A DNA stretch of 64,000 nucleotides. Source: a bacterium (lineage in GTDB: Bacteria > Orphanbacterota > Orphanbacteria > Orphanbacterales > Orphanbacteraceae). Positions within the stretch are counted from its first letter, which is position 1; each line of letters starts with the position of its first letter. The DNA lies in the NCBI GenBank assembly GCA_025782575.1, contig JALGYY010000001.1:5019-69018 (forward strand). Direction: 5' to 3'. Of this stretch, positions 35,944-52,157 are shown piece after piece. The translations under genes were made by a program, and so were the position numbers. A model generated the notes under the pieces. It saw only the letters and a program-made list of their open reading frames with translations. It was not told the DNA's origin and ran no database searches.

Positions 35944-36993
35944 CTAAGAGATACGACGACGAATGAACCGGACAAGTGGTTTCAAACGGCTGAAAGCGTA
36001 GAGCGCGGCGAGCATGCCCGATAAGGGTCTGGAGCCGTACCGGATTTTCAGCATACTTTGCCAGCGGCCGCTCTTTTCCATGCTCTTGTAGACAGAACAC
36101 CGAGTGCAGGGAATGTCGGTACGCGATTTCTTTCGACCAAACAGCATCTGACGAGCGTACTCGATCCGCTCACCGTTAATGCTCTCCTCCAGACCGTCAG
36201 TAAAAGCGTTCCCCCCGAATTCTCCCCAATAATTGATACAACAGCCGAGGACTTTACCGTCCCAGTTGATCTGCGGCTCCCGCCAGAGCTGACGGCATAT
36301 GTCGCTCGCATAGTGTCGATCGTAGCGATCCAAATATTCGCTCCGACTCGATACACTCTCATCCAGTTGTGATCGAACGAACGATTCGTCCTCGAGCGGA
36401 GAGTATTCCTCATCATAAGAGAGCTTCGGGCAGAAGACCATGTCGAGCTCTTTCGCCAGCTCACGGGCGCGCGGCAGATCCGCCTCGTTATGCCCGAATA
36501 CGATGAACTGCCACGATAGTACAGGATACTTCGAGCCATACTTCTTCTTGTAGGTGTTCAGCTTACGCAGGTTTTCGATTACGGCTTCGAAGTCCCCGCC
36601 TACCCGATAAGTGACGTACGACTCCGGCGTAGCGCCGTCGATTGAAATCGTGGCACTTCTAAACCCGAATCTGACCATTCCTTCCAGCAGCTCGTCCGTC
36701 GCCGTGTTCATGTTCAGACCGTTGTCCGCCGTCAGCAGAACACCCCGTTCGTCTGCGAGCTTCATGATGGCCATTAGATCCGGGCTCAGCAGGATCTCTC
36801 CGAAGTTTGACAGCTCCACATGCTTGATACGCCGGTTTCGCCTGAGGAGATCGGTGAAATCACCGATTTTGAGATATCCTGGGGATATCGTCGGCTGGAT
36901 TTCCTTTGTCGTCGTAGGACAGAGAGGACACCGCAACTGGCAGACGCTCATCCCCTCGATTCGAATCTTGGTCGGACGAATGCGTTTGGCCAT
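35944..36993 (-). CDS. radical SAM protein with SPASM-type C-terminal cysteines (glycan operon, last gene)
   Basis: A 349-aa radical SAM enzyme. The [4Fe-4S] motif is CQLRCPLC (CxxxCxxC) near residue 20, with ELSNFGEILL and a TISIDGATPESYVTYR region typical of the MoaA/PqqE-like fold. The C-terminal part has CRQLWREPQINWDGKVLGCCINYWGEFGG and CTRCSVYK, a SPASM/twitch-like auxiliary-cluster site. ATG 36993 is preferred over GTG 37002 because GGGAG lies eight bases upstream. It directly follows the GT4 stop. Proteins of this type act on peptides or on small metabolites; here the target is probably linked to the glycan. Confidence 0.85.
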   Translation of the reverse strand: MAKRIRPTKIRIEGMSVCQLRCPLCPTTTKEIQPTISPGYLKIGDFTDLLRRNRRIKHVELSNFGEILLSPDLMAIMKLADERGVLLTADNGLNMNTATDELLEGMVRFGFRSATISIDGATPESYVTYRVGGDFEAVIENLRKLNTYKKKYGSKYPVLSWQFIVFGHNEADLPRARELAKELDMVFCPKLSYDEEYSPLEDESFVRSQLDESVSSRSEYLDRYDRHYASDICRQLWREPQINWDGKVLGCCINYWGEFGGNAFTDGLEESINGERIEYARQMLFGRKKSRTDIPCTRCSVYKSMEKSGRWQSMLKIRYGSRPLSGMLAALYAFSRLKPLVRFIRRRIS

Positions 36994-36994
36994 A

Positions 36995-38188
36995 TCAGGC
37001 ACTCCCGATCGGTGAAGCGTCGCCTCTGCTCAAGGCCGCTCGATAGACGTGGAGCAGATCCTCGATCGTCTCGTCGACATCGAACGCGATTGCACGCTCA
37101 CGCGCCGCCCGGCCCATCGCCTTACGCGTATCCCGATCGCAGAGCATGGCGGTGATCGCGGCAGCAAGCTCATGGACATTTCCGGGAGAGACAAGAGTTC
37201 CCTCGACACCGTTATTCAACCACTCGCGAATCCCTGAGACATCCGAGCCGATGACCGGCCGCCCCGAAGCCATCGCTTCGATCCCCACAAGCCCGAAGTT
37301 CTCTTCCCACACAGATGGTACGATGACGATATCCGCGGCTGAATACTGCTTCGGCATGTCATCCGGAGCGACCGCACCTCGAAACTCGACGCCCTCTCCC
37401 AATCGAAGGGAGACCGCGAGCGAACGGAGTTCATCTTCCGAATCTCCCGAACCGACCAGAACCAGAGAAGCCTCCGGAATTGTCCGGCGAACGATTTCCA
37501 TGGCCCGAAGAAGCACGTCCACTCCCTTTTCCGGGCGTAATCGACCGACGAACATCACTTGGTTCCCGCCCGGGCTCTCAGTCGCGCCGAATCGCCTCCT
37601 GTCGACTCCGAGAGGTACATGATACACCGGCACCGGCCAATTATTCTCCGCCAGGGCTCCCTCGAGCGAGCGATTGTGGACGATCACCCCATCCAGGAAC
37701 GAGCTGTATCGCTCCGATATCTTTCGATTGAAGACATCGTGAAGCATGAACTTGCCGAGTGAACGGCAACCTGAACGGACGCAGACAAGCCCGGGAGGAG
37801 TCTTGCACAGTGCGCCGCCGGGAAGGCGTTTCGTGCGCAAGGGGCAGACCGCTTCAAACGTATGAATGGACTGAACCACCGGGCAATCGAAGGGGCGCCT
37901 CAATACGCGAAATGTGTCTCCCAGAGTTGTGTTGAAGTGAATCAGATCGATGCCGTTCTCCTCGATCCAGGAATCAATCTCCGATCGGAGATCTCTCTGC
38001 CCGAACATCGATCGAATGTACTTTTTTCCCCCGCCCTCTTCCTTGAGATACGACTGCATGGCGAAGACGGAGCTCTTATGGCCCCGTCGACCAAGAGCTC
38101 CGATCCAGGCCCGTACGGCGGACGTGACTCCTGAAAGAGCAGGTCTGGTTCTGTCGATAGGTGAAACTTTTATGAATCCGATCCTCAT
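36995..38188 (-). CDS. glycosyltransferase family 4
   Basis: A 397-aa GT-B enzyme with the acceptor-side start MRIGFIKVSPIDRTRPALSG. The donor-side motifs are VGRLRPEKGVDVLLRAM and EENFGLVGIEAMASGRPVIG (E-x7-E). An unusual cysteine-rich insert (CPLRTKRLPGG, CKTPPGLVCVRSGCRS, residues ~115-145) recalls GT4 enzymes with a structural metal site. Its ATG overlaps the stop of the kinase gene as ATGA. It is likely one of the sugar-adding steps of the operon. Confidence 0.88.
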   Translation of the reverse strand: MRIGFIKVSPIDRTRPALSGVTSAVRAWIGALGRRGHKSSVFAMQSYLKEEGGGKKYIRSMFGQRDLRSEIDSWIEENGIDLIHFNTTLGDTFRVLRRPFDCPVVQSIHTFEAVCPLRTKRLPGGALCKTPPGLVCVRSGCRSLGKFMLHDVFNRKISERYSSFLDGVIVHNRSLEGALAENNWPVPVYHVPLGVDRRRFGATESPGGNQVMFVGRLRPEKGVDVLLRAMEIVRRTIPEASLVLVGSGDSEDELRSLAVSLRLGEGVEFRGAVAPDDMPKQYSAADIVIVPSVWEENFGLVGIEAMASGRPVIGSDVSGIREWLNNGVEGTLVSPGNVHELAAAITAMLCDRDTRKAMGRAARERAIAFDVDETIEDLLHVYRAALSRGDASPIGSA

Positions 38189-39162
38189 CGCGAATGGTCC
38201 GCGTTCTCGAGATATCGGATCCGATTATTCAGCAGATCCACCTGCCTGGCCGGATCGACCCCCTGCCCATGGTAAAGCGCCAAGAGCCCGACGCCGATCA
38301 GGTGAATCAGGATGCTGAACAGATTCAGCCGCCAGTCGAAATCGTCTCCCCGCGGCCATTCACTCCGCCGATCGATCCAGACTTCGCGGTAAGTATCGAG
38401 CAGAGACTCGGTCTGACCTGACGGAGCTTCACGTATAAACATAGCCAGATCCTGAAAGGGAGAACCAAAACCGGCGTTCGCCCAATCGACGGGAAACACC
38501 GAATCTCTCCCTTTCCCGATACCGGGCAAGATATTCCTCGACTTGTAATCTCCGTGAACCTGTGTCGTCGGCGTCCGGACCAATTCGCCAAGCTCTGATT
38601 CGACCTGGCTCCGGTGAGATCGAAATATCCTCAGGATTTTTTCCGATTCCTCGGCGTTTACACCTGCCAGATAGGGAAGGAGACGATTCTCGCTCTCTTT
38701 CAGGCGCTCCCGGAAGAGTTTCTCATCGTACTTTATGAACCGTTCACGGAGGGGGAGTCGCCTGGGCACGGGCGGGAGTTCAGCCGTATGAAACGTGGCG
38801 AGCCATCGCGCCGCCCGGAGCCACCTGTCAGGATCCGCCGTATCTGCAAGAGTCTCCTCGCCGTAGTCCCGGAGGAAGAGCCACCACCCCGAGTCCTCAC
38901 CAAAGACTACAGCAACCGGCTGCGTCGATTCTCCCTCGAGCGGCCTCAACAGGTATTCATAGGCGCTGATCTCACGGCCGGTCGCCTCAGGCACGAACTT
39001 GGCAACGAGCGTTCGATGTCCTCGGAAAGGCGTCCGTAGAAAAAGCCGGTCAATATGTGGCGAGCCGTATCCTCCCTTGATCGGCACGGCTGCATCGAGC
39101 ACGATCGTCTCGTCAGCAAGGAGCGAGAGAACAGATGCGAAATACTCCCCCTCCGATTTCAT
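38185..39162 (-). CDS. APH/choline-kinase-type phosphotransferase
   Basis: A 325-aa kinase-fold protein of the aminoglycoside phosphotransferase (APH) superfamily. The catalytic loop is QVHGDYKSRNIL (Brenner-type HGDxxxxN) and the metal-binding segment is FPVDWANAGFGSPFQDLAMFI. The N-lobe has a lysine in HRTLVAKFVPE. Family members phosphorylate sugars, choline or antibiotics. Inside a glycan operon, sugar or polyol phosphorylation, or modification of a glycan precursor, is likelier than resistance. Overlaps of ATGA on both sides show translational coupling. Confidence 0.82.
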   Translation of the reverse strand: MKSEGEYFASVLSLLADETIVLDAAVPIKGGYGSPHIDRLFLRTPFRGHRTLVAKFVPEATGREISAYEYLLRPLEGESTQPVAVVFGEDSGWWLFLRDYGEETLADTADPDRWLRAARWLATFHTAELPPVPRRLPLRERFIKYDEKLFRERLKESENRLLPYLAGVNAEESEKILRIFRSHRSQVESELGELVRTPTTQVHGDYKSRNILPGIGKGRDSVFPVDWANAGFGSPFQDLAMFIREAPSGQTESLLDTYREVWIDRRSEWPRGDDFDWRLNLFSILIHLIGVGLLALYHGQGVDPARQVDLLNNRIRYLENADHSR

Positions 39163-41306
39163 TGCAGGTAACCTAGCGCGCGAAGCTGCTCGGACCTTTC
39201 TTTCCGGCCATCCTGACCGTGAAGAGAATCGGTGCCGGACGGAGTGACCGTTTCGAGCCAGCTCCGGAATTGAATGGAAAGGACTTCGCGCACCTCCTGT
39301 TCTCTTTCAGCCAGGTTTTCACTCTCCGATGGATCCGCTTCCAGATCAAATAATTCTTCGGTATTCCCGGGTCGGGCGATGATCCACTTCCATCGATCCC
39401 ACCAAATGGTTTGAAGAAGCCCCACGTCATTCCGGCTTCCATAGTGGCGGTCTCGCACAGTCAGGAATTTCTCGGCGATCACCGGTCGGCTGATGAGACT
39501 GTCCCCTCCGGCCATCGCTGCAGGAACCGGAATGCCCGAACCTCGCAATAACATGGACGGGAGTTCGAGCAACGAGATCAGCCGATCCTCTCTTCGCCCC
39601 CCCGACACTCCACCCGGTGGACGCACGACAAGAACTGTGCGCGTCACTTCCTCGTATAGCGCCTTTCCATGGCCTACGCGGCGGTGCTCTCCCAGAAACT
39701 CTCCATGATCTGAAAAGAGCACGATCCATGCTCGGTTCAGCCATTCTCTATCCTCAAGATATTCAATAAGCCGTCCCAGATGGTCGTCCATATGAGCGAT
39801 TTCGCCGTCATAGCTGTTCGATAGGATTGCCCGCTCCCAGTCTGCCAGATCAACCCGGCGATTTCGTTTTCTATAATAGAGAGTGCGAATTCTTTCGAGC
39901 CACCCCTTGGATGGTGGCGATGCTCGCAGTCGTTCGGAAAAGGTTTTCGGCGGTGCATAGGGATTGTGCGGATCGAGGTAATTCAGGAAGAGCAGAAACG
40001 GCTGATCTTCCGGGCGACGGTTTTCCAGCCAATAGATCGCCCGATCGGTTACAGCTTCCGCGTCATGATTGGTGCGTGTCAGCCTGATTAGTAATGGGAT
40101 GCGGATCACACGCCGAATCGCCTTTAGAAAGGTGAACGGCATCGGCCTGTCTGTCATCCTTCGATCTGCGAATACCTGTTGGAAGCCCCGGTCAAGACCG
40201 TACTCAGGCGACACCGAAAGCCGGTTCGATGCGATGGCCACCGTCCGATAACCGTGATCGGCGAAGACGGATGAAAGGGTGGCGATCCCGGGAGAAAGGG
40301 GGGCGGGCGGTATGCCGGCGGCAGCGGCGATCGGATAGTGCAGGCCATGTTCACTCGGATAAAGACCGGTGAAGAGAGAGGCATGTGAAGAGAGTGTCCA
40401 GCTCGAGTTTGCATAGGATCGATCGAAAACGATGGCGTCCTCGGCGAACCTGTCGAGGTTCGGTGAGGTCAACCGGGAATAGCCGTAAAGAGAGAGGTGG
40501 TCTCGCCGTACCGTATCAAGTGAAATCAGGATCACGGGAGCACCGGCTATAGTAACCGGCGGTTGATCATTCTCCTGATAATCGTCTCGCGCCATCGCCT
40601 CAAAATCGTGCATGATCGTACCGACTGCCGCTACAACTACGAGAACCAGTGGAACAGCAAAGAGTCCGACCGGGAAACGCGACCGGGCCGGGCGGCGCGT
40701 CACGATCAAGGCAAAGACGAGAGACGCCACGGAGTAAAGGATGAGAGCAATCGGGAGCCGCCCGCTTCCAGGATGGAGCGAAGAGAGATAGACACGGCCG
40801 AAGACGAACATGCCGCCGGCCAGAAGAGGGGCCATGTACAATCGGCTCTCTATACCCGCAAAGAAACAAGACCGGCGGCGGACGACCAGCAGGATCGGTA
40901 GAATCACCAGCAGGCTGATTCCGAGTGAGGCGGCGATTCCCGCCGGTGAAATGAGATAAAGACCCGCGATCAGAAATGGGTGCAGATAGTAGTTCGCGTA
41001 GACCGCCAGGAAGATCGCCGATATCACCAGAAGATCGATTCCTGGGCGGTCTTCAGCTGAGATCTTCTTGTCGAGTCGAGACCGGTGCACCAGAAGATTG
41101 CTTGCCTTATGAATGAGTGCGGCGATTGACGCCCAGGCAATCACGTTAAGAATCACCTCCGCCAGTGCGACCAGCGGAGGAGGGGACTGCACCGCCGCGA
41201 TGGCCGCCCACGTGAACAGGCCCCAGCAGAGGCCCAAGTACGCCCCACCGAGAGCACTCTTTCGGAAGGGTGAGAGAGAATCCATGGACCGGACCGTGGT
41301 ATTCAT
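39159..41306 (-). CDS. membrane sulfatase-like enzyme of the glycan operon
   Basis: A 715-aa protein with ~8 N-terminal helices (residues ~15-245), then an alkaline-phosphatase/sulfatase-fold domain. The metal-site start is VILISLDTVRRDHLSLYGYS. The active-site loop is T304-L-S-S-H308 in SSWTLSSHASLFTG, with Thr at the nucleophile site and His in place of the usual Arg. Later motifs are FLLFLNYLDPHNPYAPP and VLFSDHGEFLGEH, and the end is RALGYLQ. ATG 41306 overlaps the preceding stop as ATGA; a longer frame to 41447 is a shadow. A phospho- or sulfo-transfer role, as in phosphoethanolamine/phosphoglycerol transferases, is as likely as sulfate ester hydrolysis. Confidence 0.82.
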   Translation of the reverse strand: MNTTVRSMDSLSPFRKSALGGAYLGLCWGLFTWAAIAAVQSPPPLVALAEVILNVIAWASIAALIHKASNLLVHRSRLDKKISAEDRPGIDLLVISAIFLAVYANYYLHPFLIAGLYLISPAGIAASLGISLLVILPILLVVRRRSCFFAGIESRLYMAPLLAGGMFVFGRVYLSSLHPGSGRLPIALILYSVASLVFALIVTRRPARSRFPVGLFAVPLVLVVVAAVGTIMHDFEAMARDDYQENDQPPVTIAGAPVILISLDTVRRDHLSLYGYSRLTSPNLDRFAEDAIVFDRSYANSSWTLSSHASLFTGLYPSEHGLHYPIAAAAGIPPAPLSPGIATLSSVFADHGYRTVAIASNRLSVSPEYGLDRGFQQVFADRRMTDRPMPFTFLKAIRRVIRIPLLIRLTRTNHDAEAVTDRAIYWLENRRPEDQPFLLFLNYLDPHNPYAPPKTFSERLRASPPSKGWLERIRTLYYRKRNRRVDLADWERAILSNSYDGEIAHMDDHLGRLIEYLEDREWLNRAWIVLFSDHGEFLGEHRRVGHGKALYEEVTRTVLVVRPPGGVSGGRREDRLISLLELPSMLLRGSGIPVPAAMAGGDSLISRPVIAEKFLTVRDRHYGSRNDVGLLQTIWWDRWKWIIARPGNTEELFDLEADPSESENLAEREQEVREVLSIQFRSWLETVTPSGTDSLHGQDGRKERSEQLRALGYLQ

Positions 41307-43192
41307 TGTGACGGGGCCTCTTCGATCAACACGGCGGCCTGCTCTCTGAGCGGGGCCGGGGTCTCGGGTCTCTCTATCAGAATGCGGAGTTCCCTCTGCG
41401 ACGCGGCACTCTCTCCGAGCGCGGCATACGCCCTTGCGAGACGCCACCTCGACCCGAAGTCTCCCTCGTCAACCCGAACGGCCTCCAGCAGAACATCTCG
41501 TGCCTGTTCCGGCAAGTTCGACGCGAGATAGGCTTCGCCGAGCGGCGGCCGGATCGAGGGGTCGGTCGGTGAGAGGCGAAGCGCCGCCTCCAGATGGTGT
41601 GTCGCCTCTTCCGGCCGGTCTTCTCTCATGAGCGCCAGCGCCAGATTGAATCGAGCTTCCCCGTTGTCCGGATCTCTCTCGATGGAGCTCGTGAACATTT
41701 CAAGACCACGATCATTGTTCCCCTGCTCGCAATAGAGAACTCCGAGATCATTCTGAACGTCAACCCAGCCGGGGCGCAGTTCAAGCGCACGTTCCAGATG
41801 AGAAATCGCCGAATCCGCCTTCCCCAGATTCCAGAGTGATCTCCCGAGCTCGGCATGGGCGGGCGGGCTTTCCGGGTGGGTGGACAGCACATTTTGAAAG
41901 AGCAGAATCGCCTCATCGTCCCTACCTTCGTCCGCTCTCATTTTCCCGAGGAAGAACGATGTATTCGGGGCTTTCGGATAAACATCGAGTGTCCGGGTCA
42001 TCAGAGTCTCGTTGTCTTTCCAGTCCATGCTTCTCTTCGCAGCGGCTGAGCCGGCCGCCAGAAGGACCATGATTGCCATAACCGTCGCTACTCTCCGATT
42101 CATGGTCCGTACTCCGAATCTTTCGACCAGAAATGCTGCGCCGGCACCCAGAAGCCAGCAATAGCCGACATACGGCAGATAGAGATAGCGCTCGGCGTAG
42201 AAGTAGGTGACCGGAATCAGGTTCGATGTCGGCAGTGGGGTAATTATGGCCCACGCGGCGCTGAGCGCAACCCCCGGGCGCCTCTTCCTGTAACGAATCA
42301 CGAGAAACAAGAGGAGAAACACACTTACCATTCCGACCATGCCGTCCTTACTGAATGCGTTTCTGTTCTCAGGCAGGGGGTGTTCGATGGACAGGCCTGC
42401 CGGCACAATCAGGGCGGATACGGATTTCCCCTGGGCAAGAATCGCCTGAACAGCCACATTGCCGTAAGAGGCATCCCGAATGGTCACGGGGTTAAAACGT
42501 TGATAGAACGATCGTCCCTCTCTGCTCTTCTTTGAATAGTTGTTCAGTGCTCCCTGTTTCACGGAAACAAAAAAGGCAAGCACCAGAATGAGCGGCAGGT
42601 AACGACTGATCGATCGAAGATTCTTCCGGTCGGTAAGCCAATCCCAAAAAGCGAGGACGATAGGGAATGTCGCCGCGGATGCCTTGGCGAACAGGCCGGC
42701 GCCGTAGAGAAGAGTGGATCCCAGAACCTGGCGCCGTGATGATCCTCGAATCAACAGAAACGAGCCGAGAAAACCGGCGGCGGCGAGCATCTCTTTCCGG
42801 TGCGTGATCCCGGCCACGGATTCGGTCAGAACAGGATGAACGGCAAAGAGGAGAGCCCCGAAGAACGCGGCCCGGCCGTGGTTCAGCAATCTTCTTCCCG
42901 TCTCGAAAACCAGAATCACACAGAGACCGTGAAGCAACAGGTTCGTCAGGTGAAACCCCATCGGCTTCACCCCCCAGACGACCCGGTCCAGCCAGAGAGT
43001 GAGGGCCCGAACCGGACGTTCGTTCCAATCGAGCGTGCGCCAGAATTCGGCGCCCTCCAGATTCGTGTTCCGAACGATCAGTTCGAAATCGTCAAATACG
43101 AAACCATTGTTCAATGTGATTCCATGAGCGAGGAGTATGAAGGCGATGAGAGCGGCGTACGCGAATTTTCGTGGAGGATCCGTAAAATCCAC
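41303..43192 (-). CDS. TMTC-like GT-C membrane protein with TPR repeats
   Basis: A 629-aa protein with ~9-10 hydrophobic helices, then about six tetratricopeptide repeats (~residues 410-615, for example PPAHAELGRSLWNLGKADSAISHLERAL and GWVDVQNDLGVLYCEQGNNDRGLEMF). The first luminal loop has FVFDDFELIVRN, and a later one AVHPVLTESVAGITHRKEML. This layout is the bacterial counterpart of TMTC mannosyltransferases, which use lipid-linked sugars. It starts at GTG 43192, overlapping the GT4 stop by one base. The TPR part may contact other operon proteins at the membrane. Confidence 0.83.
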   Translation of the reverse strand: MDFTDPPRKFAYAALIAFILLAHGITLNNGFVFDDFELIVRNTNLEGAEFWRTLDWNERPVRALTLWLDRVVWGVKPMGFHLTNLLLHGLCVILVFETGRRLLNHGRAAFFGALLFAVHPVLTESVAGITHRKEMLAAAGFLGSFLLIRGSSRRQVLGSTLLYGAGLFAKASAATFPIVLAFWDWLTDRKNLRSISRYLPLILVLAFFVSVKQGALNNYSKKSREGRSFYQRFNPVTIRDASYGNVAVQAILAQGKSVSALIVPAGLSIEHPLPENRNAFSKDGMVGMVSVFLLLFLVIRYRKRRPGVALSAAWAIITPLPTSNLIPVTYFYAERYLYLPYVGYCWLLGAGAAFLVERFGVRTMNRRVATVMAIMVLLAAGSAAAKRSMDWKDNETLMTRTLDVYPKAPNTSFFLGKMRADEGRDDEAILLFQNVLSTHPESPPAHAELGRSLWNLGKADSAISHLERALELRPGWVDVQNDLGVLYCEQGNNDRGLEMFTSSIERDPDNGEARFNLALALMREDRPEEATHHLEAALRLSPTDPSIRPPLGEAYLASNLPEQARDVLLEAVRVDEGDFGSRWRLARAYAALGESAASQRELRILIERPETPAPLREQAAVLIEEAPSQ

Positions 43193-44415
43193 TACGGCTG
43201 AGCATCCCGAACCAGTTCATGGGATGAGTCGATTGGTTGGGGCCATTCTCCGGTGAGCTTATCGAGTTCATCTTCGAGAATCTCGATATTACCTTCCCAG
43301 GAAAAATACTCACTCGCCCTCTTCCGAGCATTTTTTGCAAGAGAGGACGCCCATTCCGGCGCGTCAAGAACTGCCAGAATTTTGTCGGCCAGATCTATGG
43401 ACGATCCCCTGGCTGCGTAGACTCCCGTGTCACCGAGGTAGGACCGGGTCACTGGAGTGTCGAACCCGACGACCGGCAACCCCGCCGCCATGTAGAAGAC
43501 CACTTTCGCGCTCGATTCCGATGCAAGATCGATTTTGGGATCGACGGCGACATCGGCAAGAGAGAGGTATTGCGGAAGCTCCTGGAACGGAAGTTTCCCC
43601 GTAAATGTAACCCTGGACCCGTTCCCCTGATCGAGGATGCGTCGACGGACTTTTTCGAGGGGATATCCGATGAGAAGGAAATGGATATCATCTCGAAAAT
43701 TTGTAATGGTGTCGATCGCGTCGACCAGGAAATTGACTCCTTTGACTTCGAGAAGGGCGCCCGAATAGACGACGAGTTTGGAGCCGTCCGGAATGCCAAG
43801 GCTCTGCCTCAACTCCGGGCGGGAAGAACGAGAGAAGAAGGAATCATCGACACCATCTTCAAGCAGTGTAATGTCGGCCGGACTCTTACCGAAGACATCG
43901 ACAAGAAGACGGGCGGTCGCCTTTGAACTGCAGGCAAAATGATCGGCCCGATCACAGATCCAACGTTCCAGGCGATTGAAGAATCGATCGAGCAGCCCCC
44001 CTTCCCGGATGAACGAATGGGAACGGAGCTCTGCGGTCAGACTGTCCTGAACGTCAAACAGGAGAGGCGTATCCCATCCTAGAAGGCGACGGGCGATATG
44101 GGCCACGAATGTACCCTCATGAAGATGGCCATAAAAGACATCCGGCTGAAAACGGCGCGCCGTCTTCACGCAGAGGGCAATCAACATGAGATCAAGAATC
44201 GGCTTTGTCCAGGAAGGCCCCGCCTCGAGCTTCCGGTACCAGGGAACCCCCGGAATTCGATGAATATCAATGTCTTCCGGATCTTCGCCGAGATTGTATG
44301 TGACAAGACAAACCTCGTGCCCTCGCATCGCCAGGGCACGGATTTCGCTCAATATTCTGATATGACATCCGCGATGAGCGAAGAACGGCGTAGGGGCAAC
44401 CATCAGTATCTTCAA
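43192..44415 (-). CDS. glycosyltransferase family 4
   Basis: A 407-aa GT-B enzyme starting KILMVAPTPFFAHRGCHIRIL after a TTG initiator (44415) with GGAGG seven bases upstream. The N-domain has FYGHLHEGTFVAHIA. The donor domain has YSGALLEVKGVNFLVDAI, LSLADVAVDPK and MAAGLPVVGFDTPV. A 70-base gap separates it from the previous gene, the only real break in the operon, so a second internal promoter is possible there. Confidence 0.88.
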   Translation of the reverse strand: MKILMVAPTPFFAHRGCHIRILSEIRALAMRGHEVCLVTYNLGEDPEDIDIHRIPGVPWYRKLEAGPSWTKPILDLMLIALCVKTARRFQPDVFYGHLHEGTFVAHIARRLLGWDTPLLFDVQDSLTAELRSHSFIREGGLLDRFFNRLERWICDRADHFACSSKATARLLVDVFGKSPADITLLEDGVDDSFFSRSSRPELRQSLGIPDGSKLVVYSGALLEVKGVNFLVDAIDTITNFRDDIHFLLIGYPLEKVRRRILDQGNGSRVTFTGKLPFQELPQYLSLADVAVDPKIDLASESSAKVVFYMAAGLPVVGFDTPVTRSYLGDTGVYAARGSSIDLADKILAVLDAPEWASSLAKNARKRASEYFSWEGNIEILEDELDKLTGEWPQPIDSSHELVRDAQP

Positions 44416-44485
44416 AAGACAGCCTCCATACTGGCCAGCGGACGATTCCGTCTCCAGATGACTTCGTAGTATATAGGCATGTCAA

Positions 44486-45505
44486 CTAGAAAGAAACACC
44501 TGGGGGAATTTCGCCTCCCCCGGCGGCAGGATCGCTTCGGTAGAGCTCCATTACCCGATTCTTCATATCGGCTATCGAAAACCTCTCACGAACCAGTTTC
44601 TGGGCCTGTTCCGCCCATTTATCCACTGCACCGGGGTCATCCCATACGCGCCGGAGAGCGTCGGCAAGGAGCCTGTCGTCCCCCGGTGGGAACAGCTGGC
44701 CTGTCCGTTCGTGCTGAACGATTTCTTTGAGCCCCCCGGCCGTCGAGACGATGACGGGGACCCGGTGGGCCATCGCTTCGAGTACGGAGATCCCGAGCGC
44801 CTCCGTCCACGAGGCCAGAATGACCGCCCGCGACGTCGCGTAGAGGCCGGCGACCCCCTCGGGAGAGCACTCCCCTAGAAACCGGACCCGGAGTCCGAGC
44901 GCAAGAACGCGAGCCGCCAGCAAAGCATGAGGATACTCGCGGCCCACGACGCAGAGCTCAATCGCCGGCAGCTCGTCATGAATCCGCCGGAGCGCCGCCA
45001 ACAGAGTTGTGATCCCTTTTCGAAACAGATCACGGCCGACAATGAGTATTCGATCTTCGCGAACGGGTGTACCCCGGCGGTCAGCCGGAATCCGGATTCC
45101 CATGCCGATGTTAACGAGACGCGGATGCTGAACGGCCGACTTCACGGCATTCGAATGAACGAAAACCGTATGGGCGCCGGCGAGCAGGATTTTCATTCGT
45201 CTGGCACGTTGCTTCTGCAATACCCAGCGGACCGGAAAATCCGGGGCGGGAAACGGTTGGAAGTGAGTCCAGTAATGGTCGTGCAGGTCGAGTATGATGC
45301 GGTGGCGATTCGATTTCGAAAGTTCGCCGGGCATGTGCTTCCCGTCCAGAACGTGAATCCAGTCCCACTCCATCCCCAGATCATCAACGTGGCGATAGAG
45401 AGAGATCTTCATGTCTGAACTGAGTTCTTCCAGCAATGTATCCTGATACACCGATGAACCGGTGATCGCCCCCCGGGGGCTCCTGACAAATAAGACCCTC
45501 ATCAT
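44486..45505 (-). CDS. glycosyltransferase family 4
   Basis: A 339-aa GT4 enzyme, shorter than most. The N-domain contains ILDLHDHYWTHFQPF and VFVHSNAVKSAVQ. The donor domain contains VGRDLFRKGITTLLAAL, CSPEGVAGLYATSRAVILASWTEALGISVLEAMAHRVPVI and a final amphipathic helix. The ATG overlaps the GT2 stop as ATGA. It probably adds one sugar of the repeat unit; specificity cannot be read. Confidence 0.87.
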   Translation of the reverse strand: MMRVLFVRSPRGAITGSSVYQDTLLEELSSDMKISLYRHVDDLGMEWDWIHVLDGKHMPGELSKSNRHRIILDLHDHYWTHFQPFPAPDFPVRWVLQKQRARRMKILLAGAHTVFVHSNAVKSAVQHPRLVNIGMGIRIPADRRGTPVREDRILIVGRDLFRKGITTLLAALRRIHDELPAIELCVVGREYPHALLAARVLALGLRVRFLGECSPEGVAGLYATSRAVILASWTEALGISVLEAMAHRVPVIVSTAGGLKEIVQHERTGQLFPPGDDRLLADALRRVWDDPGAVDKWAEQAQKLVRERFSIADMKNRVMELYRSDPAAGGGEIPPGVSF

Positions 45506-46458
45506 CCGAGCCAGCGCCGGCGCATGGCGATGTCACCTATGACAAGCTTCTTTGAGACGAGTTCCGCCGAGTCCCGCCTGCCCGTATTGCGGGGTGTCTC
45601 CCTGCGATACCGGGCGGAGTTCGCCAGCACACGAATCAGGTCCCCTGCAGCCAGGAAGAACTCGCCGAATCGAAGACGAAGTAAGCGGCCGAGAAGAGAG
45701 CCCGCTTCACCCATGACCAGGAACGGAAGATTCCTGATCAGGAGCCCGGCAGGCCAGCAGCGAAGCAGGAAGATGAGACGATTACGATGGAGAAGTCTGC
45801 GTTTCCGGGCGGGGTCACGGCCGGTCAAAGCGGAGTGAGCATGCTGCACACGGGCGTTCGCTGCATAGCGAGCGGTCCAGCCGAGCATGCCGGCGCAAAA
45901 TGCGATTTCAGCGTCTTCGTAATAGAGAAAATAGTCAGTCCGGAACCGGCCCACCTGTTCGATGAGGTCCGACCGGTAGAGAGCAGCGGCTCCTGCGGGG
46001 CCGAGCAAAGGAGACTCGTCGTCCGGGGAACGGTGCACGACGAAACCGTCGCGGGAAACCGCGAGCCCCGCCGAATCGAAGGCTCCCCCCTCGCCCGCAA
46101 GAACGGTGGCGGCGACCATCCCCACACGGGGTAAGCGCTCAGCTTCGGCTACGAGTGCACTCAACCATCCCGGTTCCGCGACGGCATCCGGATTCAACAA
46201 TGCGAAATAATCCGCTCGGTGGCTGATGATAGCCAGATTTACGGTCGCACCGAACCCCAGATTGCTCTCGAACTGAACGGAATCAATCCCCGGAAATTCC
46301 CGGTGCGCTCTCTCATATGATCCGTCCGTCGAGCCGTTATCGGCAAGCACGACTGAGTAGTTCGGATAGTCCTGGTCCATGAGCGATGCGAGGCAATCAG
46401 AGAGATAAGGATCGCCGTTCCAGTTCACAACGATGACCCAGACCATCGGATCAGCCAT
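45502..46458 (-). CDS. glycosyltransferase family 2, rhamnosyltransferase-like
   Basis: A 318-aa GT-A enzyme with the N-terminal VWVIVVNWNGDPYLSDCLASL, ADNGSTDGSYE, the metal site in ALLNPDAVAEPGWL and an FLYYEDAEIAFCAG motif, as in WbbL-type rhamnosyltransferases. A basic C-terminal part with hydrophobic segments suggests membrane attachment. Start candidates are TTG 46476, ATG 46458 and ATG 46446; the middle one is used because it overlaps the upstream gene by only eight bases and keeps the N-terminal strand. It lies between two GT4 genes. Confidence 0.85.
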   Translation of the reverse strand: MADPMVWVIVVNWNGDPYLSDCLASLMDQDYPNYSVVLADNGSTDGSYERAHREFPGIDSVQFESNLGFGATVNLAIISHRADYFALLNPDAVAEPGWLSALVAEAERLPRVGMVAATVLAGEGGAFDSAGLAVSRDGFVVHRSPDDESPLLGPAGAAALYRSDLIEQVGRFRTDYFLYYEDAEIAFCAGMLGWTARYAANARVQHAHSALTGRDPARKRRLLHRNRLIFLLRCWPAGLLIRNLPFLVMGEAGSLLGRLLRLRFGEFFLAAGDLIRVLANSARYRRETPRNTGRRDSAELVSKKLVIGDIAMRRRWLG

Positions 46459-47641
46459 GGGAAATGATCTCTTCAATCACGTTTCGTAACCTCTCTCCCG
46501 CCATTCTTCTACCGGCCACACTCTCGGCATGTCGCCGTGCGGCCCTTCCCATCCGTTCGGTAAGATCGGGATCACTCATCAAAAGAGCTATCTGTGCAGC
46601 AAAACGATTCGGCTCCGGAGGAAACAGAAAACCGGTTTCGCCGTCAGAGACAGTCTCACGATGTCCCGCCTCGTCCCTTGCCAGAACCGGAGTCCCCGAA
46701 GCCTGTGACTCGAGAGATACGAGACCGTACGGTTCCAGCTCGGATACGCTGAGAGTAACCCAGGCGCGGTTGTACAGGCGAACCACATCTTTGTCGGTGA
46801 GGTCGGTCACGATCTCCAGATCGACCCCGGCCGAACGAGCCGCGAGGTTCAATCTCGATTGAAAGGACCTGCTCCCTGGGAACCCGGCGACGATCAGCTT
46901 CGGCCGCGCTTCCGCGGGAATGGCCCCAATTATCTCGACAGCAAAGAAATGCCCTTTTCTCTCGACCAGCTTTCCCACGCTGAGAACGATCTTCTCTCGC
47001 GGGACTCCAGGATCGGGGCGAAAGAGATCCGTGTCGATTCCGGGGCGAACGACAATCGCTCTCCTGCCGTAGACTTCATCGATTCGACCGGCGGAGTACT
47101 CGCTGTTTGTGAGAATAGTATCGGCTTTTAATGCCAGAAAACTGTCCCGGCGATCGAGCCAGCGTCCGATCGGCCGAAAGAGAAGCCGGCCCATGCGAAA
47201 CAGCAGGCTTCCCGGCGCCCCGTCTCGAAAAGGAACCCCCTCCCGGTACAACCGCAAGGGCTCAGGGCAATAGTAAACAGTCGAAGTTTCGAGATACCGG
47301 AGAATCGCCGGTGCTTGACCGAATCGGCAGGGGTGAAGAAACGCAATATCGAAACCACCCTCATCTATCCGCTTCGCCAGCTTCTTCGATGCGCGTTCGA
47401 TCTGCCGCAGATTCCAGAGGTCGGTCCATTTGTGAAAGGGGTACAGCGGCCCGGACGGAGAGAGCTCGATCAGCCTGGCACGGACGCTCCAGACTTCCGG
47501 CGACGAGGGCTGATTGATCAATACCCATGTGATGTCGTTGTCTCTCCCGAGGTATTCGGAGAAATCACGCAACGCCCTGAGGGCTCCCCCCTCTTCCAGG
47601 TTGTGATGAATCGCGATTCGAAGCCGCTCAGTCGAGTTCAA
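46451..47641 (-). CDS. glycosyltransferase family 4, TTG start
   Basis: A 396-aa GT-B enzyme. The N-terminal domain has RIAIHHNLEEGGALRAL and the donor domain has LSVGKLVERKGHFFAVEII, RLYNRAWVTLSVSELEPYGLVSLESQASGTPVLA and GFLFPPEPNRFAA. The start is TTG 47641, with GGAG six bases before it and a 14-base overlap with the preceding gene; the longer frame to 47728 is a shadow of that gene. It is probably translated by coupling. Confidence 0.87.
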   Translation of the reverse strand: MNSTERLRIAIHHNLEEGGALRALRDFSEYLGRDNDITWVLINQPSSPEVWSVRARLIELSPSGPLYPFHKWTDLWNLRQIERASKKLAKRIDEGGFDIAFLHPCRFGQAPAILRYLETSTVYYCPEPLRLYREGVPFRDGAPGSLLFRMGRLLFRPIGRWLDRRDSFLALKADTILTNSEYSAGRIDEVYGRRAIVVRPGIDTDLFRPDPGVPREKIVLSVGKLVERKGHFFAVEIIGAIPAEARPKLIVAGFPGSRSFQSRLNLAARSAGVDLEIVTDLTDKDVVRLYNRAWVTLSVSELEPYGLVSLESQASGTPVLARDEAGHRETVSDGETGFLFPPEPNRFAAQIALLMSDPDLTERMGRAARRHAESVAGRRMAGERLRNVIEEIISHG

Positions 47642-48764
47642 GTATTTCTCCGTAATAGGTCTCAACAGCACGTGCTCTGGCAGTGGCAGAGAATTTCTCT
47701 TCCGCGATTTTTCGGCCCTCTCGAGCAAGACTCACCATACTCTCCGGTGTGGCGAAAAGAGAGGTGATCGCCTGACCGATCGATTCCGCCGTTCCGTTTC
47801 CGGCGAGACAATATGCGTTTCCAGGTAAGGCGCGGGCTGCTCCCGAAGAGGCGGCAGCCACTACAGGCACCCGGCTCGCAATCGCCTCCAGCATGACTCG
47901 ACCGAACGGCTCTTCCAGACTGGGAAAGACCAGTATGTCGAGATCAGGTAACAACCGTTCCATATCAGTGCGCGCACCGAGGAGATGGACCCAGCGATGG
48001 GGATCAGCGGATTTCGCGATCATTTCCCCGTAGCCGGTGAAGCGGGGTGAAGGATCTCCGATGAGGACGAGATGCAGTCCCGGATGATTCCGCCTCGCAA
48101 TCTGAGCCGCCTCGAACAGGACCTCTACTCTCTTGCGGGGAATCAACTGCCCTGCGTAACCGACTACAGGATCGTTCGTCCCGATGCCACACTCCCGGCG
48201 GAGAACCGAGTCTTCTCTCGACTGCGAAAATCGGCCCAGGTCCACTCCGGCGGCAATTTCCCGTCTCTTCCCCTGACCGATCGATGGAAAGCGACCGGCT
48301 GTCTCGCTGCCAAGAAACATTCCGTGGGGACGGCCGATGTTGGCAGCCCGCTTCAGTAGAAATCGCTCGAAAGGATGGGAGAAGAAATCCTGAACGTCCC
48401 ATAACAGGGAAGCCCCCAGGCGACGTGCAAACCGGGCGCCACTCAGGTGGGCTCCGAACGAGAGTGTGTGCACCAGATCCGGTTTCCCCGCCCCTCCGAT
48501 TCCATCGGCCAGGGTCCGCAGCATTTTCGAGCGGCGCCAGAGCTGCGGCAGCGCCCGGACGGCAGGTTTCGTCTGAAGGGGACGAAGGGAACATTCAACC
48601 GTCCTGGTGAGGGAGCTCGCTTCACGAAGAAACGGTCCGGAAGGTCCGGCAAGACAATAGTCGAATCGATCACTGTCGAGATGACGGAGTAACTCCAGCA
48701 GGCCAACTTCGACCCCGCCTACGATCTCCTCCTGATCCGTAAGGAAGAGTACACCCGGCTTCAA
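47628..48764 (-). CDS. glycosyltransferase family 4, TTG start
   Basis: A 378-aa GT-B enzyme beginning KPGVLFLTDQEEIVGGVEVGLLEL, with VGYAGQLIPRKRVEVLFEAA, the ADPHRWVHLLGARTDMERLLP stretch and SLEEPFGRVMLEAIASRVPVV on the donor side. The initiator is TTG 48764, sharing TTGA with the preceding gene's stop, as at mrpC/mrpD. The longer frame is rejected because it overlaps the GT2 coding region with non-conserved residues. Confidence 0.87.
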   Translation of the reverse strand: MKPGVLFLTDQEEIVGGVEVGLLELLRHLDSDRFDYCLAGPSGPFLREASSLTRTVECSLRPLQTKPAVRALPQLWRRSKMLRTLADGIGGAGKPDLVHTLSFGAHLSGARFARRLGASLLWDVQDFFSHPFERFLLKRAANIGRPHGMFLGSETAGRFPSIGQGKRREIAAGVDLGRFSQSREDSVLRRECGIGTNDPVVGYAGQLIPRKRVEVLFEAAQIARRNHPGLHLVLIGDPSPRFTGYGEMIAKSADPHRWVHLLGARTDMERLLPDLDILVFPSLEEPFGRVMLEAIASRVPVVAAASSGAARALPGNAYCLAGNGTAESIGQAITSLFATPESMVSLAREGRKIAEEKFSATARARAVETYYGEILELD

Positions 48765-49660
48765 CGCCCCGCCGCCTCTCCATACCCTCGGGCAAAGTTT
48801 CCATGTACTTTGTGGGCAAAGTACCATTCCTCCACCTTCGTCAAATGAAGACCTCGCGCGATCGGGTAAACTAGACGGCTCAGTCTACCCAGCACAGCCC
48901 GGCGAAATGTGGGTCGCGGGATCTCGACGAAATCGTCAAAAGAGGGTTCAGTGCGCAGCAGCTGCCGGGCCAGCTGACCCTTCTTGAATCGGCGGCGACA
49001 GAAACTATCCTCGGTCCAATCGTGGTGATGCTGAACGACGAGATTGGGATCGTAGTAGAGACGCATGCCCTGATTGGCAGCGTGGTAGGCAAAGACAGTA
49101 TCGATCCAGCAGGGGATGTCTTCGGGAAACCCTCCGACCTTCTCCCATAGTGACCGGTTGATTGAAGCGTTCAGCGTGAAAAAATGCCGGTTCGGCGCAA
49201 AGCCTCCCTGTGGGAGTTCAGGGTGCTGGTGGATGATCCCCTTTCCCAGCCAATCTCGAAATCGCGAGGCAGGAAGCGCAGGTGACCAGACGACACGCCC
49301 CGATACCGCGACGAGAGGCTCGCCCAGATTTCTATGTCGATTCAGATGCCCCGTGATCAGGTCGGGGGGACAGAAAGAGTCATCCCCCAATATGAGGAGC
49401 AGTTTTCCTCCGGCTCCCCTCACGGCTGTGTTGAGACCGGCCCCGAGACCTTTCGGCTTAGTCCTGATCGTTCTGAGTTTCACGCCGGGAGGGGTAACAA
49501 GCCGGCGCAGCATTTGCCAGGTGTCATCCCGGGAGCCGTCGTCGACTACGACGATCTCGATTCGATCCTGCTCCGATCGGAACAGACGGGTGAGGGTCTC
49601 TTCGAGGATCTCCCGGCGATCACGCGTCGATATGATCACGCTGATTTCGGTCTGATCCAT
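48761..49660 (-). CDS. glycosyltransferase family 2
   Basis: A 299-aa GT-A enzyme starting MDQTEISVIISTRDRREILEET. It has VVVDDGSRDDTW, LLILGDDSFCPPDLI (the metal-binding acidic pair) and ASINRSLWEKVGGFPEDI. The end (FAHKVHGNFARGYGEAAG) is basic. The ATG at 49660 is five bases after the radical SAM gene; a longer frame to 50080 would overlap that gene entirely and is a shadow. Donor unknown. Confidence 0.85.
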   Translation of the reverse strand: MDQTEISVIISTRDRREILEETLTRLFRSEQDRIEIVVVDDGSRDDTWQMLRRLVTPPGVKLRTIRTKPKGLGAGLNTAVRGAGGKLLLILGDDSFCPPDLITGHLNRHRNLGEPLVAVSGRVVWSPALPASRFRDWLGKGIIHQHPELPQGGFAPNRHFFTLNASINRSLWEKVGGFPEDIPCWIDTVFAYHAANQGMRLYYDPNLVVQHHHDWTEDSFCRRRFKKGQLARQLLRTEPSFDDFVEIPRPTFRRAVLGRLSRLVYPIARGLHLTKVEEWYFAHKVHGNFARGYGEAAGR

Positions 49661-49665
49661 TCTGT

Positions 49666-50667
49666 CTAACCGTAGGGGCGGAAGAGCGAATGGGCACGCT
49701 TCCGAAGCCATAGCTTCATACGTCCCTTTGCTTCTTCCCACCCAGTGTGAGGGCCGCCCTCGCGCAGCTCGTCGCAGTTTCGACAGAGTGCGATGTCGCC
49801 GAACTCGCCCGCCACATGATTCCGGCGCAACTTCACCATCGCCTCTCCGTTCCAGATCGCGCGCACGGAATTGACTCGTGTGCTGCCGATCGGGTGTTCC
49901 CCTTCCATGTCCATGCAGCAGGGGACAACTGTTCCGTCCCAGAGAATCCCCATGCCATACCAGATGCGTGCACATGCGGAAAGAGGGCCGTCGAGACCGA
50001 GCCCCAGATCTCTTCGCCGCTCGGCATCCGCCCCGCTCCACACATGCTGATCGGCGATCTGCAGATAGTCCGCTCCCCATTCCGCGAGTGGTGACTCATC
50101 CGCTCGGGGAAATTTATCGGGAGATGGTCTCGTAACGCGAATCACCAGAAAGGGGCTCCGGCTCGTTCGCAACTCGAGAAACCGGGTCACGTTTCTCTTG
50201 AGCCGATTGAAATTACCGCCCCCCATGGCTTCTCTGTAACTTCTCTCGTCCTCTCCATCCACGCTGACCGAGAGAAGTTCGAGACCCGAATCGATCAGGC
50301 GCCGGGAGTAATCTTCCGTGAGAAGAAGCCCGTTGGAGTGGAGAACGGTGGACATTCCGTGCTCAGCCGCCAACCGGATTCGATCGGGAAGATCGGGCAC
50401 GAGAAGTGACTCACCACCCAGATGAAAACTGATGAGAGGTTTCCAATCGCTGACTTCCTCAATCAGATCTCGAAATATTTCTTCGCTCATGATTCCCATC
50501 GCCCGCTTCAGCCCGGTTGCGTGAGGGCACTTGGGGCAACGAAGATTGCATCGATTCGTCGGCTCGATCCAGAGTTCGCGCGGAGGATAAGGAAGTTCGA
50601 TTATTCCACGACGGTATGCGTCGGCGATCTGATCCTGCGACAGACTATTCTTCAAGAGATTGGTCAA
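49666..50667 (-). CDS. radical SAM/SPASM protein (glycan operon, second gene)
   Basis: A 333-aa radical SAM enzyme. The cluster motif is CNLRCPKC in WIEPTNRCNLRCPKC, followed by ISFHLGGESLL and LLSVSVDGEDERSYRE. The C-terminal auxiliary-cluster region has CARIWYGMGILWDGTVVPCCMDMEGEHPIG and CRNCDELREGGP. TTG 50667 overlaps the flippase stop (TTGA) and has GGAG about five bases upstream. It differs clearly from the second radical SAM protein of the operon. No short precursor peptide gene is visible nearby, so a peptide-modifying role is not supported. Confidence 0.85.
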   Translation of the reverse strand: MTNLLKNSLSQDQIADAYRRGIIELPYPPRELWIEPTNRCNLRCPKCPHATGLKRAMGIMSEEIFRDLIEEVSDWKPLISFHLGGESLLVPDLPDRIRLAAEHGMSTVLHSNGLLLTEDYSRRLIDSGLELLSVSVDGEDERSYREAMGGGNFNRLKRNVTRFLELRTSRSPFLVIRVTRPSPDKFPRADESPLAEWGADYLQIADQHVWSGADAERRRDLGLGLDGPLSACARIWYGMGILWDGTVVPCCMDMEGEHPIGSTRVNSVRAIWNGEAMVKLRRNHVAGEFGDIALCRNCDELREGGPHTGWEEAKGRMKLWLRKRAHSLFRPYG

Positions 50668-52157
50668 GTTCTCTCCCCCTCATGTAGTCGGCGGCCGGGA
50701 ATCATGGCGACCATCTGACGAAGCCCCCAGGTGAATGTGTCGCGGTAGAATATCGAGAGGAAGAGAAAATACAGGAGGCTACCGAGACAGACCTGGACGA
50801 TCAGCCTCGCGAGAATGCCGGGAACTAGACTTTCAAGCAGGGGGCGCATGAGGATCAGGCTAGCACAGAAGAATAGCGACGCAAACAGGGGCGGCCGAAT
50901 GGCACGTACAAGCTCGCTCGCGGACAGGTGAAGCGTTCGGACGCCTAAAGCGAATATCAGGCATCGAGAGGCGCCGAGTACCAGTGTAACGGCCGCGGCA
51001 GTAGGGACGATCCCACGAGGTACGCAGAAATAGAGAGAGCCGGCAAGCATCGGTAGAGTGACCAGCGAGACGCGAAAAGGGATATCCGGTCTTCCCGCCG
51101 CGCGGAGCATGGATACAGCAGGCCTGGAGAGTGCCGTTACAAGGCCGAGCGCGATGAGAAGCCGGAACGGGGCGACCGACTCGATCCAGCGCTCCCCGTA
51201 GATCCCCACCAGATAATCATGTGCCACGAGCCACTGGCCGGCGAGTGCCGGGAAGACGAGCAGGGCGAGCGCTCGAATAAATCGGTTTCCCCATTCCTGA
51301 AGGCCGTCACCCTCTGAACGGATCGTGGCGAGGATCGGATAGGCGACTGACCGGGACAGTTCTTCAATGTAACCGGCGATCGCAACCGCGGAAAAGTAGG
51401 CGAAACTGTAGATCCCCAGCTCGCGGGCACCGAGAAGATATCCGATCAACATGAAATCGGCATAGCGAAGCGCCATCTCGACGAGATCAGAGCCGGCTAT
51501 GTACCGGCCGTAGGATATGATGTCACGAAGATGGGAAGCGCTCCACTGAAGGCGGGGGCGCCAGGAACAGAGGCGCCAGTAAAAGACTGCGGAGAGCAGA
51601 GGCTTGGCGAGGGCGGGATAGACAAAACTCCACACTCCCATGCCGGAGAGGGCGAGCGTCACGGTAAATAGGGTCGAAAACAGATCGAGAACGAGGTTTC
51701 GGCGGGCGAGTTCCGGGAAGCGGAGATCCCGCCGGAGGATGGACCGGGGCACCGGGTTTAAAGACCCGAATATGAAAATCAGAGACATCACCCGGAGAAC
51801 CGGCAGGAGTTCCGGTGTTCGATAGACCGCCGCTACCCAGGGTGCGATGCTGAATGTCATAATGGTCAGAACGACGCCGACGACGGCGCTCAGCCAGACT
51901 GCTGTATTCGCATGCTCGTGCCCCTCTTTTCCTTTGTAAATCAGGAATGCGGCAACACCGAAGCCGTCAAACACACCCAGGAGGGCAATCAATACGTTCG
52001 CAGCTGCTATGATTCCGAAATCAGCGGGAAAGAGAACGCGGGCAAGTACGATGCCGCCGATGAACCCGATGGCCTTCCGACTGCCGCTCGAGAGCAGGAG
52101 CCACGCCGTCCCCTCCAGGGTCTTCCCGCGTATTCGATCCGAGTTCCCTCTGCTCAT
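50664..52157 (-). CDS. lipopolysaccharide/exopolysaccharide flippase (Wzx/MOP family)
   Basis: A 497-aa polytopic protein with ~12-14 helices, of the polysaccharide transporter branch of the MOP superfamily. It opens LEGTAWLLLSSGSRKAIGFIGGIVLARVL, with FGIIAAANVLIALLGVFDGFGVAAFLI and the central YGRYIAGSDLVEMALRYADFMLIGYLLG. It flips lipid-linked glycan units across the cytoplasmic membrane. It is first in the 13-gene minus-strand operon, and its 5' region carries a tandem repeat. The ATG at 52157 has only a weak ribosome-binding site (GGCGG). Confidence 0.9.
   Translation of the reverse strand: MSRGNSDRIRGKTLEGTAWLLLSSGSRKAIGFIGGIVLARVLFPADFGIIAAANVLIALLGVFDGFGVAAFLIYKGKEGHEHANTAVWLSAVVGVVLTIMTFSIAPWVAAVYRTPELLPVLRVMSLIFIFGSLNPVPRSILRRDLRFPELARRNLVLDLFSTLFTVTLALSGMGVWSFVYPALAKPLLSAVFYWRLCSWRPRLQWSASHLRDIISYGRYIAGSDLVEMALRYADFMLIGYLLGARELGIYSFAYFSAVAIAGYIEELSRSVAYPILATIRSEGDGLQEWGNRFIRALALLVFPALAGQWLVAHDYLVGIYGERWIESVAPFRLLIALGLVTALSRPAVSMLRAAGRPDIPFRVSLVTLPMLAGSLYFCVPRGIVPTAAAVTLVLGASRCLIFALGVRTLHLSASELVRAIRPPLFASLFFCASLILMRPLLESLVPGILARLIVQVCLGSLLYFLFLSIFYRDTFTWGLRQMVAMIPGRRLHEGERT

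Follow-up and report, generated by a model that had tools for sequence, protein, structure and literature searches.

The window analysed here, a 64,000-nucleotide stretch of contig JALGYY010000001.1 (assembly GCA_025782575.1, family Orphanbacteraceae of the phylum Orphanbacterota), contains at 35944-52157 a run of 13 genes, which we lean towards reading as a module for the synthesis of a decorated surface oligosaccharide via a Wzx-type route. Thirteen intact, co-directional open reading frames (ORFs) on the minus strand fill this interval with zero internal stops in the frame check, and Pfam backs every class of enzyme among them, namely a flippase (PF13440), two proteins with radical S-adenosylmethionine (radical-SAM) and SPASM domains, two GT2 and five GT4 glycosyltransferases (GTs), a PMT_2 protein with tetratricopeptide repeats (TPRs), a PF00884 enzyme and an APH-type kinase. 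The 16-kb run outlined in an earlier note on this DNA is hence borne out, along with its Wzx-like flippase, seven GT2/GT4 enzymes, TPR-bearing TMTC-like GT-C protein, APH kinase and two SPASM radical-SAM genes. The gene order is flippase, SPASM radical-SAM 1, five GT2/GT4 genes, a 70-base gap, a GT4 gene, the TMTC-like gene, the PF00884 gene, the APH gene, a further GT4 gene and radical-SAM 2.

Conservation, limits and layout of the run

All 13 genes recur in identical order and direction, with protein identities of 38-61%, in G001 (Candidatus Eisenbacteria bacterium isolate Dive96_bin2.117), which represents another genus of the same family and is one of the seven genomes, all from one family, that constitute the phylum sample; the genome of the window itself is designated G000. 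The only sizeable gap sits at the matching junction in G001 (100 vs 70 bases) and junctions are tight in both copies, which makes the run more than a chance arrangement. Loss of the radical-SAM genes from otherwise conserved clusters, set as a test in the earlier note, is not observed, since both genes are kept in G001, the sole other copy. The genes that flank the run differ between the two genomes, with PMT_2 and subtilase genes in the window; in G001, one flank has menaquinone-type genes (AMP-binding, UbiA, thiamine pyrophosphate enzyme and chorismate-binding), and the opposite flank encodes an MFS/HEAT protein and CstA. Because of these differing neighbours, the limits are placed at the flippase and radical-SAM 2, between which the run is, as judged by this comparison, one unit. 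The subtilase, a protein of 1360 amino acids with CARDB and FlgD-Ig domains (31679-35761), lies directly downstream on the same strand and is not present at the matching place in G001. A sugar transferase of the PF02397 family shared by the two genomes is 63% identical, somewhat above the run proteins, and this level of identity does not settle between inheritance and exchange of the run. Base composition was also considered as a sign of recent horizontal gain and gave no signal, with a GC content of 57.5% in the run and 57.1% on both sides.

Most junctions have an overlap or gap of about 5 bases or less, with plausible starts. The earlier note had allowed the 70-base gap as the only exception to junctions of 5 bases or less, of which the gap and most junctions hold, but the GT4 genes 4 and 5 overlap by about 14 bases and genes 5 and 6 (GT4 and GT2) by 8-26 bases, varying with the start chosen. 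The 13 genes are probably a co-transcribed module; a transcription start inside the gap is possible but unproven, and scans for promoters and terminators revealed no excess above shuffles. The features of the run are as follows:

50664-52157, minus strand: gene 1, Wzx/MOP-family flippase, 497 amino acids (PF13440 8.2e-71, PF01943 7.7e-28; 56% identical orthologue in G001)
49666-50667, minus strand: gene 2, radical-SAM/SPASM protein 1, 333 amino acids (PF04055, PF13186; CX3CX2C and five auxiliary-domain Cys; best profile matches BtrN and DesII; 61% in G001)
48761-49660, minus strand: gene 3, GT2 glycosyltransferase, start set at 49660 (PF00535 4.2e-22; 54% in G001)
47628-48764, minus strand: gene 4, GT4 glycosyltransferase, EX7E present, likely TTG start at 48764 (PF00534, PF13692; 50% in G001)
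46451-47641, minus strand: gene 5, GT4 glycosyltransferase, EX7E present, longer starts possible up to 47728 (PF00534 3.7e-28; 50% in G001)
45502-46476, minus strand: gene 6, GT2 glycosyltransferase (PF00535 6.2e-20; 51% in G001)
44486-45505, minus strand: gene 7, GT4 glycosyltransferase, EX7E present (PF00534 4.7e-31; 44% in G001)
44416-44485, no strand: sole sizeable gap, 70 bases (100 in G001), without a conserved peptide
43192-44415, minus strand: gene 8, GT4-fold glycosyltransferase, second Glu of EX7E replaced (AKVVFYMAAG) (PF13579, PF13439, PF00534; 60% in G001)
41303-43192, minus strand: gene 9, TMTC-like GT-C glycosyltransferase with C-terminal TPRs, 629 amino acids (PMT_2 30.8 bits against a cut-off of 26.1, and TPR families; DD and ERxxY conserved; 44% in G001)
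39159-41306, minus strand: gene 10, membrane-anchored alkaline-phosphatase-superfamily enzyme with a Thr nucleophile, likely phosphoryl transferase or phosphatase (PF00884 5.4e-42; SLDT/SWTLSSH/SDHGE; ORF open to 41447; 45% in G001)
38185-39162, minus strand: gene 11, APH-fold small-molecule kinase (PF01636 1.6e-13; HGDxxxxN and VDW present; 38% in G001)
36995-38188, minus strand: gene 12, GT4 glycosyltransferase, EX7E present (PF00534 3.8e-43; 48% in G001)
35944-37002, minus strand: gene 13, radical-SAM/SPASM protein 2, 352 amino acids (PF04055 9.9e-8, PF13186 8.9e-6; same Cys pattern as radical-SAM 1; 52% in G001)

Catalytic motifs are intact in the APH kinase, in four of the five GT4 enzymes and in both radical-SAM proteins. 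None of the ten run proteins scanned matches an NCBIfam equivalog past its cut-off, and hence no named function is assigned to any of these ten; the matches of the flippase to NCBIfam MOP flippase and TuaB models fall below cut-off. For the APH kinase no substrate is indicated by its PDB matches, which are all weak (E 0.03 or worse) and comprise an aminoglycoside phosphotransferase and 4-hydroxytryptamine kinase.

Radical-SAM proteins and their association with glycosyltransferases

Both radical-SAM proteins carry the CX3CX2C motif, a SPASM domain and an identical set of five auxiliary cysteines, which in radical-SAM 1 are the conserved residues 232, 250, 251, 295 and 298. Since these are five and not the seven auxiliary cysteines of SPASM proteins with two extra clusters, the assignment of a SPASM domain is a profile-based one, and the five residues fit a single auxiliary cluster. 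When the profile of radical-SAM 1 was compared with solved structures, BtrN and DesII came first, with the BtrN match spanning the core as well as the auxiliary domain. BtrN acts on a cyclitol and DesII on an (amino, nucleotide) sugar, but both serve antibiotic pathways. By fold comparison with Foldseek, BtrN, DesII, BlsE, anSME, PqqE and ChlB are all near to radical-SAM 1, with SuiB and EpeE matched as well, such that sugar-acting and peptide-acting SPASM enzymes are not told apart by this fold search. Peptide modification, a frequent activity of SPASM enzymes, together with the fold matches to ChlB, SuiB and EpeE, could suggest that the run is a cluster for a glycosylated ribosomally synthesized peptide with SPASM maturases. 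We regard this as very improbable, as neither the gap nor the flanks contain a small peptide gene conserved between the two genomes and, to our knowledge, a Wzx-type flippase with seven GTs is out of keeping with known clusters of this kind.

At E up to 1e-20, radical-SAM 1 has relatives in 124 of 386 genomes, spread over many families. Around the best of these in other phyla, 40 neighbourhoods of no more than 20 kb were screened for GT2/GT4 genes with profiles of the operon's own enzymes; 21 of the 40 contain at least one, as compared to 2 of 20 random stretches from the same genomes (p = 0.0012). As some of the genomes come from the same family, the 40 loci are not fully independent. In other phyla, the best examples are loci L043 and L170, having two radical-SAM genes by GT4, GT2 and flippase genes, and L048 with the series GT4, radical-SAM, flippase and GT2. 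Relatives of radical-SAM 2 are near GTs at 8 of 18 loci, several of them on short contigs. The association of radical-SAM genes with GTs is general, and the 13-gene run is one well-bounded case of it. In several families (L159, L160, L161 and L170), two radical-SAM genes and one GT4 gene form a repeated triplet, the second radical-SAM gene of which is not an orthologue of radical-SAM 2. The operon is echoed in part at L158, L168 and L172, also in other phyla, where a Thr-type PF00884 gene and a GT2 gene occur no farther than about 20 kb from a radical-SAM 1 relative. Radical-SAM 2 has a near-orthologue in a different phylum (L245, on G075:C88, 44% identity), which was rejected as a cluster, being alone on a 3-kb contig, where it adjoins an apparent IS3-type transposase, as seen by eye. 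In the literature, no paper was found that specifically addresses SPASM radical-SAM enzymes within O-antigen clusters.

Gene 10 has a threonine at the nucleophile position

The earlier note had described gene 10 as a membrane sulfatase-like enzyme, a label that its active site makes improbable. When gene 10 is aligned with related loci of the family as well as loci from other phyla, a Thr (SWTLSSH; TLSSH here and TLPAH in G001) falls in the column where sulfatases have Cys or Ser, and in both copies of the run this Thr is surrounded by the D-T and D-H-G motifs; the formylglycine-type C/S-X-P-X-R motif that marks a sulfatase is absent. In MCR-1, EptA, LtaS and YejM, a Thr of this kind serves in a periplasmic or extracellular domain that is anchored to the membrane (PMC5175174, PMC7576196). 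Gene 10 resembles EptA/MCR, LtaS and YejM in its N-terminal membrane helices, with which five to six hydrophobic segments in a simple scan are consistent, in the PF00884 domain, in the Thr nucleophile, in the metal-binding Asp and in the D-H pair, but differs from EptA in that its sequence is closest to S1 sulfatases and phosphonate monoester hydrolases. Because of the Thr at the nucleophile position, as in EptA, LtaS and YejM, gene 10 is probably no sulfatase, and more likely a phosphoryl transferase or phosphatase that would act on the exported glycan or its lipid. Thus, the label 'sulfatase' in such loci can mask a phosphoryl-transfer enzyme, shifting the predicted product from desulfated to phosphate-decorated. 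As a class, gene 10 is unremarkable, with about 50 PF00884-type candidates in the genome. At 10109-11929, about 24 kb from the run, a further PF00884 protein is encoded, whose nucleophile position is occupied by Ser (SSPSH).

The Thr nucleophile also bears on whether the radical-SAM proteins are formylglycine maturases, i.e. anaerobic sulfatase-maturating enzymes (anSMEs), of the sulfatase-like enzyme. The SPASM fold, the Foldseek matches to anSME and the presence of a sulfatase-like gene in the operon are in line with such a role. However, the target residue is Thr rather than Cys or Ser in both genomes, from which it follows that gene 10 is not matured in this manner, and anSME is absent from the profile matches of radical-SAM 1; the pairing of an anSME with a sulfatase was accordingly ruled out, and a maturase function of the two proteins is scarcely credible.

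TMTC-like GT-C protein

The membrane half of gene 9 matches PMT_2 weakly, as given above, and its DD (M1; D34 D35) and ERxxY (M7; ERYLY) motifs of TMTC proteins are invariant with G001. At likely equivalent places, judged by eye, KETxxT (M4) is altered to KASAAT and DW (M5) to IEH, because of which gene 9 is called TMTC-like and not TMTC. In a structure model, the membrane half has a predicted local distance difference test (pLDDT) score mostly below 50, too poor for a search, and no PDB profile match was obtained. Full-length TMTC-like proteins with TPRs exist in many prokaryotes (PMC7801869). As compared to animal TMTC1-4 and the prokaryotic TMTC-like proteins, gene 9 shares a predicted GT-C membrane half, C-terminal TPRs, DD and ERxxY, but differs from TMTC1-4 in being bacterial, in lying inside a glycan operon and in the two altered motifs. 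Several full-length paralogues of gene 9 are encoded elsewhere in the genome, and genomes of the family hold several.

Since animal TMTC1-4 function in an O-mannosylation pathway and have DD and ERxxY in common with gene 9 (PMC7801869), the run could be a protein-glycosylation locus, in which the TMTC-like GT-C transfers sugars directly onto exported proteins and the remaining enzymes elaborate or decorate the glycan. A second, divergent PMT_2 protein that adjoins at 52337-54001 would add to this. Against it stand the degenerate KETxxT and the EH at the DW position, the paralogues elsewhere in the genome and the lack of a G001 orthologue of the neighbouring PMT_2 gene, which places that gene outside the unit, and we consider direct protein glycosylation rather improbable. 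This PMT_2-type GT-C gene, divergently oriented next to the run, was likewise dismissed as a fourteenth member, having no orthologue in the six relatives, including G001.

Polymerase, chain-length and priming genes

In both genomes, the 13 genes and the scanned flanks are without Wzy and Wzz, and no initiating phosphoglycosyltransferase is present within the run. Elsewhere, G000 encodes five Wzy_C-domain proteins, one Wzz, and six PF02397 and two PF00953 matches, and G001 likewise carries Wzy_C, Wzz and initiating transferases away from the run. The missing polymerase is hence a local absence only. Thus, of the claim in the earlier note that no Wzy or Wzz is present, the local part stands, with none at the borders in either genome, but it does not extend to the genome as a whole; a Wzy/Wzz pair beside the run in relatives, proposed there as a test, is absent from the borders in G001.

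A conventional polysaccharide locus of G000 (C13:296935-315512) contains PF02397 at 296935, the only Wzz match of the genome at 298470, Wzy_C at 308393 and a further PF02397 at 314910, while the other Wzy_C proteins are encoded on C46, C21, C2 and C11. With such enzymes available, the run could instead specify a classic Wzx/Wzy O-antigen or exopolysaccharide, polymerized by Wzy and Wzz supplied in trans from C13. However, PF02397 and Wzy_C genes with similar spacing are also found in family members without the 13-gene run, and this set is hence independent of it. Furthermore, Wzy enzymes are usually encoded alongside their own repeat-unit genes. A polymeric product is therefore considered unlikely, and the evidence favours a single unit without proving it.

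Proposed pathway

From the gene identities, motifs, co-conservation and absence of a border polymerase described above, we infer every reaction of the following pathway as well as its product. Synthesis of the decorated oligosaccharide would begin with the priming of undecaprenyl phosphate by a housekeeping transferase of PF02397 or PF00953 type encoded elsewhere, followed by extension by up to seven cytoplasmic GT2/GT4 enzymes. In the cytoplasm, the APH-type kinase would phosphorylate a sugar or other small precursor, and the two SPASM radical-SAM enzymes may modify a sugar by dehydrogenation, epimerisation or deoxygenation (cf. BtrN, DesII). After the flippase has turned the lipid-linked oligosaccharide to the periplasm, the TMTC-like GT-C could add a polyprenyl-phosphate-linked sugar and the Thr-nucleophile enzyme could add or remove a phosphoryl group, with final attachment by a WaaL/Wzy_C-type enzyme encoded elsewhere.

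Several observations weigh against this reading. Nucleotide-sugar biosynthesis genes and a ligase were not found within the run. Gene 8 (43192-44415) is without the second Glu of EX7E (SESSAKVVFYMAAG) in G001 too, yet it is among the best-conserved run proteins (60%). The fold of radical-SAM 1 is no proof of a sugar substrate, because it also matches the peptide-acting anSME, ChlB, SuiB and PqqE. The full 13-gene set is present in two genomes only: close relatives of radical-SAM 1, radical-SAM 2 and gene 10 are all missing from the remaining five genomes of the phylum sample, and a scan in which the alignment of radical-SAM 1 was run against 84,980 species genomes, with strict peptide patterns that would miss distant copies, recovered the G001 copy alone.

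A more specific version, which we advance tentatively, holds that two BtrN/DesII-like enzymes with a single auxiliary cluster would give rise to unusual sugars through radical reactions on a lipid-linked surface oligosaccharide or on its sugars and, together with the TMTC-like GT-C and the Thr-type phosphoryl transferase, would form a polymerase-free pathway for decorated glycans, related forms of which may exist in several uncultured phyla.

Comparison with known systems

In Brachyspira hyodysenteriae, a 36-kb plasmid has radical-SAM genes among GT and rfb genes, for which its authors propose a role in lipooligosaccharide biosynthesis or glycosylation (PMC4267127). That block is similar to the run in having several radical-SAM genes among GT group 1 and GT2 genes, but includes rfb rhamnose genes and epimerases, and the first 18 genes of its table comprise no TMTC-like, APH or sulfatase-like gene. 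Hence, the novelty of composition that the earlier note had claimed applies to the exact set, but not to its parts, as SPASM radical-SAM genes beside GTs are widespread (PMC4267127) and prokaryotic TMTC homologues were already reported (PMC7801869).

With Wzx-dependent clusters for O-antigen, capsule or exopolysaccharide, the run has in common a Wzx/MOP flippase, a string of GT2/GT4 genes and periplasmic decorating enzymes in one operon. It differs from them in lacking Wzy, Wzz, an initiating transferase, a ligase and nucleotide-sugar genes, and in the addition of two SPASM radical-SAM genes, a TMTC-like protein and an APH kinase. The general kind of system is known, and the combination with two radical-chemistry enzymes looks new. 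SPASM radical-SAM genes adjoin GTs in many uncultured phyla, and almost nothing was found published on their role there; as a bounded 13-gene module common to two genera, the run offers a compact test case for which sugar is modified and by which radical reaction.

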